From positions 2,914,001 to 2,978,000 of the forward strand of contig NZ_CP020737.1 of NCBI RefSeq assembly GCF_002097715.1: 64,000 bases of DNA. The letters run 5' to 3'. Within the stretch, counting starts at the first letter, position 1, and each line of letters opens with the position of its first letter. Made by a program: the position numbers and the translations under genes. Below, one piece after another: positions 11,007 to 20,657 of the stretch. Source of the stretch: Burkholderia ubonensis subsp. mesacidophila (lineage in GTDB: Bacteria > Pseudomonadota > Gammaproteobacteria > Burkholderiales > Burkholderiaceae). A model generated the notes under the pieces. That model saw only the letters and a list, made by a program, of their open reading frames with translations. It was not told the origin of the DNA and did no database searches.

Positions 11007-11091
11007 GCCCAGGTGGTGAAATTGGTAGACGCAGGGGACTCAAAATCCCCCGCCGCAAGGCGTGCCGGTTCGATTCCGGCCCTGGGCACCA
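11007..11091 (+). tRNA. tRNA-Leu (anticodon CAA)
   Basis: The acceptor arms GCCCAGG and CCTGGGC pair, with a long variable arm as in leucine tRNAs, the TTCGATTCC T-loop, and an encoded CCA at 11089-11091. The anticodon stem GGGGA/TCCCC encloses CTCAAAA, placing anticodon CAA, which reads UUG. No integrase or duplicated tRNA end is seen nearby, so there is no sign of island insertion here. Confidence 0.97.
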
Positions 11092-18145: not shown

Positions 18146-19177
18146 ATGGCATTCAACGTCACTCTCAAGCAAAGCGGCCGGCAATTCCAGGTCGAGTCGG
18201 ACGAAACCGTGCTGGCGGCCGCGCTGCGCCAGAACGTCCATCTGCCGTACGGCTGCAAGAACGGCGCGTGCGGCTCCTGCAAGGGGCAGATCGTGTCGGG
18301 CCAGATCGAGCAGGGCCCGCACGCCGCGTCGGCGCTGTCCAACGACGAGCGCACCCGCGGCCTCGCGCTGCTGTGCTGCTCGAAGGCGCAATGCGATCTC
18401 GAGATCGACGTGCGCGAGATCGCCGGCGTCGACGGGGTGCAGGTCAAGAAGCTGCCGTGCCGCATCGCCGCGCTCGAGCGCAAGGCCGACGACGTGATGG
18501 TGCTGAAGCTGCAGCTGCCGGCGAACGAGCGCCTGCAGTACCTCGCCGGCCAGTACATCGAATTCATCCTGAAGGACGGCTCGCGCCGCAGCTACTCGAT
18601 GGCGAACGCGCCGCACGAGGAAGGCCCGGTCGAGCTGCACATCCGCCACATGCCGGGCGGCAAGTTCACCGACCACGTGTTCGGCGCGATGAAGGAGCGC
18701 GACATCCTGCGCTTCGAGGGCCCGCTCGGCACGTTCTTCCTGCGCGAGGATTCCGACAAGCCGATCGTGCTGCTCGCGTCGGGCACCGGCTTCGCGCCGA
18801 TCAAGGCGATCATCGAGCACGTGAAGCACCGGGGCATCACGCGGCCGATGACGCTCTACTGGGGCGCGCGCCGCAAGAAGGACATCTACCTCGCCGAGCT
18901 CGCCGAGCAATGGGCGAGCGAGATCCCGAACTTCAAGTTCGTGCCGGTGCTGTCCGAGCCGGACGACGCCGACCAGTGGGCCGGCCGCACCGGCTTCGTC
19001 CATCGCGCGGTGATCGAGGACCTGCCGGACCTGTCGGCGCACCAGGTCTACGCGTGCGGCGCGCCGGTGATGGTCGAGTCCGCGCAGCGCGACTTCACGC
19101 AGCATCACGGGCTGCCCGCGGACGAGTTCTACGCGGACTCGTTCACGAGCGCCGCCGATCTCGCGCATCCGGTCTGA
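18146..19177 (+). CDS. ascD: [2Fe-2S] flavin reductase, AscD / CDP-6-deoxy-delta-3,4-glucoseen reductase-like
   Basis: A 343-residue electron-transfer flavoprotein: N-terminal plant-type ferredoxin domain (about 1-90; cluster ligands in GCKNGACGSCKG and LCCSKAQC), a FAD domain (RSYSMAN near 155) and a NAD domain (GTGFAPIKAI near 215). This order is that of AscD and phenol-hydroxylase-type reductases. The name follows common annotation in Burkholderia, but no deoxysugar genes are nearby, so the true partner is unknown. The ATG at 18146 begins the ferredoxin domain. Confidence 0.85.
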   Translation: MAFNVTLKQSGRQFQVESDETVLAAALRQNVHLPYGCKNGACGSCKGQIVSGQIEQGPHAASALSNDERTRGLALLCCSKAQCDLEIDVREIAGVDGVQVKKLPCRIAALERKADDVMVLKLQLPANERLQYLAGQYIEFILKDGSRRSYSMANAPHEEGPVELHIRHMPGGKFTDHVFGAMKERDILRFEGPLGTFFLREDSDKPIVLLASGTGFAPIKAIIEHVKHRGITRPMTLYWGARRKKDIYLAELAEQWASEIPNFKFVPVLSEPDDADQWAGRTGFVHRAVIEDLPDLSAHQVYACGAPVMVESAQRDFTQHHGLPADEFYADSFTSAADLAHPV

Positions 19178-19261
19178 GCCCCGGCCGGCGCCCGCGCCCC
19201 GCACACCGCCGCGACACATTTGTTGCATCGCGGCGGTTTACAGTGGGACGCGGGATGCCGT

Positions 19262-19357
19262 ATGCTTGCGCACATGAACCGCTTCCTGTCCACTCTCCGA
19301 CGTCGCCGCTCGCCGCTCCGCCCGGATGCCGCCGGCTCGTCACGGACTCGCGCGTAA
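19262..19357 (+). CDS. Putative Arg-rich leader peptide of argD
   Basis: A 31-codon frame ([12 protein letters not shown], then four Arg at 13-16) with Arg also at 7, 20, 28 and 30: eight Arg in 31 codons. Two of the four clustered codons (CGA, CGT) are ones that GC-rich genomes use sparingly. GGGA lies six bases before ATG 19262; an internal in-frame ATG at 19274 would give 27 residues. It ends 46 bases before a strong terminator that precedes argD. The position and composition suggest an attenuation leader. Translation itself is not proven. Confidence 0.55.
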
Positions 19358-19431
19358 CCCCTACCCCGCTTCACCGGTTACGCACAAGCTGTTCGAACCA
19401 CCCAGCCACGGCATCTACCGTGGCTTTTTTT
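19352..19431 (+). promoter_or_regulatory. Putative arginine attenuator before argD
   Basis: Three elements are seen. A perfect 8-bp hairpin pairs 19352-19359 with 19376-19383 and includes the leader stop codon. An intrinsic terminator has arms AGCCACGG (19404-19411) and CCGTGGCT (19418-19425) followed by a T-run to 19431. Inside the leader frame, CCG-GGCT at 19329-19337 can pair, with a small internal loop, with the terminator's first arm. Ribosome stalling at the Arg codons would leave this competitor free. The model is inference; the terminator is clear. Confidence 0.6.
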
Positions 19432-19472
19432 ATTGCCTGTTTCCCTTTGACCGCCAGCAGGAGTCTGCCGCC

Positions 19473-20657
19473 ATGCCCCTGAACGATTATCCGATCGACT
19501 CGCTGATGTACATCACGACCCGCCCCGACATCGTGTTCACGCACGGCAAGGGTTCATGGATCTACGATCACACCGGCAAGCGTTATCTGGATTTCATCCA
19601 GGGCTGGGCGGTCAACAGCCTCGGCCACTGCAACGACGGCGTCGTCGAGGCGCTCAAGTCGCAGGCTGAAACGCTGCTGAACCCGTCGCCGGCGTTCTAC
19701 AACGAGCCGATGGCGAAGCTCGCGGGCCTGCTCACGCAGCACAGCGCGTTCGACAAGGTGTTCTTCACGAACAGCGGCGCCGAAGCGAACGAAGGCGCGA
19801 TCAAGCTCGCGCGCAAGTGGGGCCGCAAGTTCAAGGACGGCGCATACGAGATCATCACGTTCGACCACGGCTTCCACGGCCGCACGCTCGCGACGATGTC
19901 GGCGAGCGGCAAGCCGGGCTGGGACACGCTGTACGCGCCGCAGGTGCCGGGCTTCCCGAAGGCCGAGCTGAACAACATCGAGTCGGTCGAGAAGCTGATC
20001 AACGGGAAGACCGTCGCGGTGATGCTCGAGCCGATCCAGGGCGAAGGCGGGGTGATCCCCGCGACGCGCGAATTCATGCGCGCGCTGCGCGCGCTGACGA
20101 AGCAGCACAACCTGCTGCTGATCGTCGACGAAGTGCAGAGCGGCTGCGGCCGCGCGGGCACGCTGTTCGCGTACGAGCTCGCCGACATCGAGCCGGACAT
20201 CATGACGCTCGGCAAGGGCATCGGCAGCGGCGTGCCGCTCGCGGCGCTGCTGTCGAAGGCCGAGGTCGCGGTGTTCGAGGCGGGCGACCAGGGCGGCACC
20301 TACAACGGCAACCCGCTGATGACGGCGGCAGGCTATTCGGTGATCTCGCAGCTCGTCGCGCCCGGCTTCCTCGAAGGCGTGCGCGCGCGCAGCGAATACC
20401 TGAAGCGCAAGCTGCTCGATCTGTCGGATGAGCGCGGCTTCGAGGGCGAGCGCGGCGAGGGCCTGCTGCGCGCGCTGCTGCTCGGCAAGGACATCGGTCC
20501 GCAGATCGTCGAGAAGGCGCGCGAGATGCAGCCGGACGGCCTGCTGCTCAACGCGGCGCGCCCGAACCTGCTGCGCTTCATGCCCGCGCTGAACGTGACG
20601 ACCGAGGAAATCGACCAGATGATGGCGATGCTGCGGTCGATTCTCGACACGCTCTGA
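19473..20657 (+). CDS. argD: Acetylornithine aminotransferase ArgD
   Basis: PLP-dependent class III aminotransferase that converts N-acetylglutamate semialdehyde to N-acetylornithine in arginine synthesis; homologues also act on succinyl-diaminopimelate. The 394-residue protein has the PLP lysine at Lys248 (TLGKGIGSG), the DEVQSGCGR block at 219-227, and [10 protein letters not shown] at 100-109. AGGAG lies nine bases before ATG 19473. The arginine-rich leader upstream supports an arginine role. The GNAT gene follows after 12 bases and may be cotranscribed. Confidence 0.9.

Follow-up and report, generated by a model that had tools for sequence, protein, structure and literature searches.

The window analysed, a stretch of 64,000 nucleotides of the Burkholderia ubonensis subsp. 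mesacidophila genome (contig NZ_CP020737.1, positions 2,914,001 to 2,978,000), carries on its forward strand argD, encoding acetylornithine transaminase (19473..20657; NF002985, 803.7 bits for a cut-off of 568). It is preceded on the same strand by a conserved neighbour, a ferredoxin-reductase-like gene (18146..19177, with the start at 18146 chosen in the present analysis), whose top NCBIfam match is BenC with 213 bits, under the cut-off of 430. Between the two genes, and in the same orientation, we observed a promoter with a -35 box TTTACA (19237..19242) and a -10 box TATGCT (19261..19266) separated by 18 nt, followed 7 nt later by the conserved ATG of a probably leaderless leader ORF of 27 codons and TAA (19274..19357, stop codon at 19355-19357). 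Within this ORF four Arg codons stand in a row, CGA CGT CGC CGC (19298..19309); this run is hereafter called region 1. Further downstream lie region 2, whose core GCCGCCGGCTC (19328..19338) is a partial complement of the terminator 5' arm and a candidate antiterminator, a hairpin holding the leader stop codon (19352..19383), in which GCGTAACC (19352-19359) is complementary to GGTTACGC (19376-19383), and an intrinsic terminator (19404..19431) with the stem AGCCACGG/CCGTGGCT at 19404-19425 and then a T run. The terminator ends 41 nt before argD, which has the Shine-Dalgarno (SD) sequence AGGAG at 19459-19463. A first-pass annotation of this DNA had pointed out the four successive Arg codons, the hairpin and the terminator ending shortly before argD, and all of them are present in the sequence as it described them. 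A 9-bp inverted repeat, CCGCCGCGA/TCGCGGCGG (19206-19236), abuts the -35 box; it might mark the end of the upstream gene or be an operator. Elsewhere in the window, a tRNA-Leu (CAA) gene is found at 11007-11091.

The element is matched over its full length (19260..19430, forward strand) by the Rfam family RF02884, BcKCsr7, already catalogued as a Burkholderia sRNA, with a covariance-model score of 156.4 bits for a gathering threshold of 59 bits; on the present reading, the first 14 nt of this match are promoter. In the Rfam search RF02884 alone reached its gathering threshold in the region, and no T-box or other riboswitch was detected. A plasmid search with the element region returned only a 32-nt match. 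In the whole genome we detected one RF02884 match (150 of the 1921 first-look candidates were scored), and the idea that this element also controls other arg genes was discarded. No comparable leader was found within 350 nt upstream of argC (itself a match under the curated cut-off), argG and the two ornithine carbamoyltransferase genes. A strong terminator 96 nt upstream of argC was taken as the end of the preceding gene, and at locus L299 an ORF with five Arg codons in a row begins 110 nt before argF, with a hairpin 10 nt before this gene. The genome gave no match to the ArgR domain, which was matched in 9 of the 14 control genomes, E. coli among them; according to the available text of PMC5343134, ArgR is conserved in many gammaproteobacterial groups and absent in other classes. 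A second aminotransferase copy (C1:1255276-1256427 of the source genome) scores as AstC, an enzyme of arginine catabolism, and was therefore ruled out as another ArgD. Since the other copy is of the AstC type, the ArgD of the window is taken, from these scores, as the biosynthetic one. An attenuator is expected to precede a gene involved in making the amino acid that it senses, and argD is such a gene, with NF002985 above the cut-off and the enzyme function assigned by homology.

The leader had initially been started at the ATG at 19262, which opens a 31-codon frame with eight Arg codons, with GGGA read as its SD sequence. This frame does exist in the sequence, but its ATG sits within the -10 box and is not conserved, many relatives having TATTCT or TATCCT in this box instead; the conserved start is the ATG at 19274. 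GGGA (19252-19255) precedes the -10 box and is therefore probably not transcribed. Because both belong to the promoter and are unconserved, we rejected the start at 19262 and the SD assigned to it. Indeed, an SD-like tetramer 4-17 nt before the leader ATG was found in none of the 139 leaders compared, and a -10-like hexamer is located 6-9 nt upstream of the ATG in 136 of them and, on re-inspection, in the other three as well. The distance from the -10 box to the ATG is 6, 7 or 8 nt in the 107 leaders of the family set described below, the ATG having been picked by this spacing. From the ATG to the end of the terminator stem, 12 of 23 Burkholderia-type leaders measure 147 nt and that of the window 151 nt; the length given for the published B. 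cenocepacia transcript is also 147 nt. The lack of an SD, the -10 box 6-9 nt before the ATG and the 147-nt length together suggest that the argD leader is probably translated from a leaderless mRNA, as proposed for trpL of S. meliloti; there, the available text of PMC7298713 states that the RNA starts at the leader ATG, so that it may be a leaderless mRNA.

Among the 200 genomes of the family that were scanned, RF02884 matched in 121, and we read 110 loci from 109 of these, the source genome included. In 109 loci the element is flanked by both the ferredoxin-reductase-like gene and argD (L108 has no argD). In 107 of these 109, a promoter, an ATG 6-8 nt after the -10 box, an Arg run and a terminator follow each other directly before argD; the two loci left out are L075, with NN at the start codon, and L080, in which the start codon and the frame of the run are lost. 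In L080 the best argD match begins at residue 134, and the element and argD seem to decay together. A motif pattern scan of genome contigs gave at least 120 loci which, since they overlap the family set and the scan required the motif, show placement and not prevalence: among the matches listed, each of the 115 loci reaching argD (115 of 115) has this gene on the same strand at 37-151 nt from the element, on its downstream side, and 80 titles name Burkholderia, Paraburkholderia, Caballeronia, Pandoraea, Mycetohabitans and Ralstonia. In the 120 listed loci of at most 8 kb (1,894,728 bases scanned, both strands of the 120 named loci), the combination of promoter, ATG and RRR retrieved 113 argD-type leaders in 113 loci and a single ORF elsewhere, devoid of a terminator; as these loci were picked for the element, the useful figure is the low background.

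Loci beyond the Rfam matches were also inspected. RF02884 gave no match in 79 of the family genomes; argD was matched at E <= 1e-120 in 56 of them, and the best 30 of these 56 loci comprise 21 with leader, promoter and terminator and 9 without. Two further family loci missed by Rfam, L233 and L234, have no leader. An order-wide sample of 120 genomes contained 17 argD orthologues with at least 59% identity, nine with the leader (source genome included) and eight without; in family f8 the leader is present in 25 of the best 30 loci of 49 argD matches and absent from five, and in family f24 it is present in 4/4 loci. None of the four argD orthologues found outside the order in a class sample of 274 genomes has it. 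Absence at L233, L234 and L292-L295 was judged by eye over 330 nt. At L275, L286, L287, L290, L303-L306, L311 and L328, argD follows the reductase-like gene, and no promoter, leader and terminator were seen. A loose promoter pattern match near an Arg-rich ORF at L238 was left out of the counts. The many argD orthologues without a leader count against an attenuator, as do the five of the 107 leaders with only two adjacent Arg codons. Sequence comparison nonetheless shows conservation of the layout, the frame, the Arg run, the terminator, the target gene and the lack of an SD, and the layout is kept in other families with other stems; conservation in relatives had been proposed as the check on the initial reading of the region as an arginine attenuator, and this reading is supported by it.

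Even with the ATG picked only by its spacing from the -10 box, every one of the 107 leader ORFs holds an in-frame Arg run, RRRR in 101, RRR in one and RR in the rest, that is, the conserved cluster of codons for the pathway amino acid that is expected in the short leader ORF of an attenuator. The run is preceded by 6, 7, 8 or 9 codons in 5, 8, 79 and 15 loci, respectively, hence changes in length have preserved the frame. Its 417 codons are 205 CGC, 111 CGA and 101 CGT; CGG, AGG and AGA are never used. In the argD genes, CGG makes up 9.2% of the Arg codons and CGA, with which each of the 107 runs opens, only 2.9%, a contrast that speaks for the attenuator. CGA, CGU and CGC are expected to be read by one tRNA, tRNA-Arg(ICG).

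Stalling on such a run could have another cause. Leaders of the SpeFL type rely on arrest-peptide sensing, and here too a nascent chain, together with free arginine or a related metabolite, might stall the ribosome in place of a low level of Arg-tRNA. A short, conserved and Arg-rich peptide, with CGA as the first codon of the run in 107/107 leaders, would be compatible with this explanation. In addition, a leader with Arg codons acts on Salmonella speF, as reported in the available text of PMC6386406, which corrects the first-pass annotation, where no well-established arginine example was known. However, the peptide varies freely ahead of the run (MNRIQSEL, MIRAQAHL, MNLIAIASI, MNHANI), which is unexpected of an arrest peptide, and synonymous codons vary within the run. 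For the 48 distinct leaders in which eight codons precede the run, we obtained a pN/pS of 0.88 for codons 2-8 versus 0.04 for the run; this difference favours codon sensing over a specific arrest peptide, which we consider quite improbable.

The RNA itself has been described in B. cenocepacia. The review PMC10987360 reports it, in its available text, under the names Bc_KC_sr7, RIT34, nc5U30 and IG1_2967543 (chromosome 1, 2,967,641-2,967,787; 147 nt), as an expressed and conserved sRNA without assigned function, lowered during C. elegans infection and raised by organic peroxide; that text makes no link to a leader peptide or to argD (0 occurrences of argD). These changes do not bear on the attenuator. 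The 'nc5U' of nc5U30 presumably stands for short 5'UTR. Sass 2017 (PMC5688073) describes 82 short 5'UTR transcripts arising from processing or attenuation, the name nc5U being absent from its main text, and the available text of Sass 2015 (PMC4603805) mentions neither attenuation nor arginine. BcKCsr7 could be an independent trans-acting sRNA, with its placement before argD and its small ORF incidental, as would agree with its listing as an sRNA in Rfam and in PMC10987360 and with its own promoter and terminator. We find this highly improbable and have rejected it, because its placement before argD is constant in all the listed loci that reach this gene and the Arg run is in frame in the 107 leaders, where it is kept while the residues before it drift. 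Moreover, the leaders of families f8, f24, f3 and f5 keep the ORF with a different RNA sequence.

An intrinsic terminator lies between the leader and argD in 107/107 leaders and in 32/32 leaders of other families; taken alone, the terminator of the window is unremarkable (1 found versus 1.6 expected in shuffles). Outside the family the stems differ (for example GCCACAGG/CCTGTGGC, GGCCGCA/TGCGGCC, GCCGCGC/GCGCGGC), with matched arms and the Arg runs kept. Minimum-energy folding of the free leader gives the terminator in 107/107 and 32/32, with at least 3 nt of the Arg run paired downstream in 107/107 and 31/32. When a ribosome was placed on the second Arg codon and the RNA was folded from 14 nt beyond, the terminator 5' arm had as its partner the region 2 core, which lies 25-45 nt past the beginning of the run, in 107/107 and 29/32. 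This pairing was obtained for 38/38 representatives versus 5.5 expected after shuffling of the region, and for 29/32 others versus 9.0 expected; the core was placed after the duplex-energy result was known and the sequences are related, so the stalled folds cannot be counted as independent trials. In 104 of the 107 leaders the core, GGC[TA], keeps its position, in all three reading frames and either inside the ORF or past its stop, and it is therefore kept as RNA.

The strength of this pairing is less clear-cut. The energy of the antiterminator duplex beats that of shuffles (p<0.05) in only 9/38 representatives and 6/32 others. The combined chi-squares are 169.0 on 76 df and 95.7 on 64 df, from rows that are not independent, and a 14 by 14 cross-family duplex matrix was mixed, with the own pair at rank one in 3 cases and at rank two in another 3. 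The competitor for the terminator arm proposed at the outset, CCGCCGGCT (19329-19337), is thus present, with its position kept and its pairing with the arm recovered in the stalled fold, but in the window its duplex energy does not stand out from shuffles (p 0.385). Both alternative RNA structures are predicted by folding, and these models indicate an antiterminator that is well supported in place and less so in strength. That the locus simply carries a short ORF and then a partial terminator, so that argD would be expressed at a constant low level without arginine control, is the explanation to which we give least credit: it would agree with a duplex no stronger than shuffles in many lineages, but not with an Arg run kept across families while stem sequences change, a GGC[TA] core kept whatever its frame or its side of the stop, or an arm that pairs with this core far more often than with shuffled sequence. 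We also observed that CAAGCUGUUCGAA (19385-19397) can pair with the leader 5' end (19276-19284; GAAC, GCUU) in the Burkholderia consensus fold, and that in another group of ten sequences the leader 5' end pairs with CGGUU/CGGUC instead; such a pairing, if formed as modelled, might block ribosome re-loading on the released RNA.

The element is thus very probably a ribosome-mediated transcription attenuator which senses charged arginine tRNA and controls argD. We infer that it would operate as follows. Transcription would begin at or beside the ATG at 19274, and a ribosome would load on the leaderless 5' end. With ample Arg-tRNA, this ribosome would pass CGA-CGT-CGC-CGC and reach the stop codon; region 2 would then be covered or paired with region 1, the terminator would form, and termination would release a short RNA, the known BcKCsr7/nc5U30/RIT34. 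When Arg-tRNA is scarce, the ribosome would wait on the Arg run and mask region 1, region 2 would be able to pair with the 5' arm of the terminator, and RNA polymerase would continue into argD, the expected response to low arginine.

The released product could have a role of its own. Attenuation of argD in cis through the leaderless Arg peptide might be combined with an action of the released RNA or peptide in trans, by analogy with rnTrpL; we regard this dual role as unlikely. In bacteria lacking ArgR, it would let the same arginine signal reach argC and argG, before which no such attenuator was seen.

Arginine would be a new specificity within a known attenuation mechanism, and this interpretation re-labels a known RNA. 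It offers a function for an Rfam family known so far simply as an sRNA, and makes a leader transcript of an RNA catalogued in the B. cepacia complex. It also offers a mechanism for arginine control where ArgR is not found, in the source genome and, following the available text of PMC5343134, in other classes. In the literature searched, mostly open papers without supplementary tables, no bacterial attenuator of argD or of arginine biosynthesis is named; arginine biosynthesis would be added to the pathways attenuated by leader peptides, with a leader gene that is probably leaderless and is retained in several families.

The his, trp, leu, thr and phe operons of proteobacteria use leader-peptide attenuators. 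The argD leader resembles them in having a short ORF rich in codons of the pathway amino acid, predicted alternative hairpins and an intrinsic terminator before a biosynthetic gene; unlike them, it would be specific for arginine, lies directly before argD, lacks an SD and is predicted to be leaderless. RF02884 BcKCsr7/nc5U30/RIT34 of B. cenocepacia is the identical RNA, there listed as an sRNA with no function. S. meliloti trpL, as presented in the available text of PMC7298713, has an RNA start at the ATG and releases a small RNA, rnTrpL, by attenuation, both of which are proposed here for the argD leader; it differs by its amino acid, tryptophan, by belonging to another class and by the trans functions reported for rnTrpL. 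The Salmonella orf34-speF leader also uses Arg codons in a leader ORF to report the arginine supply, but, according to the available text of PMC6386406, it has two consecutive Arg codons, an SD and Rho-dependent termination, with mRNA decay and RBS control, and it acts on a polyamine gene. An element of the orf34/speF type, Rho-dependent, led by an SD and without an intrinsic terminator, was therefore discarded for this locus, since the argD leader has no SD and instead combines a strong intrinsic terminator with a gene of arginine synthesis.
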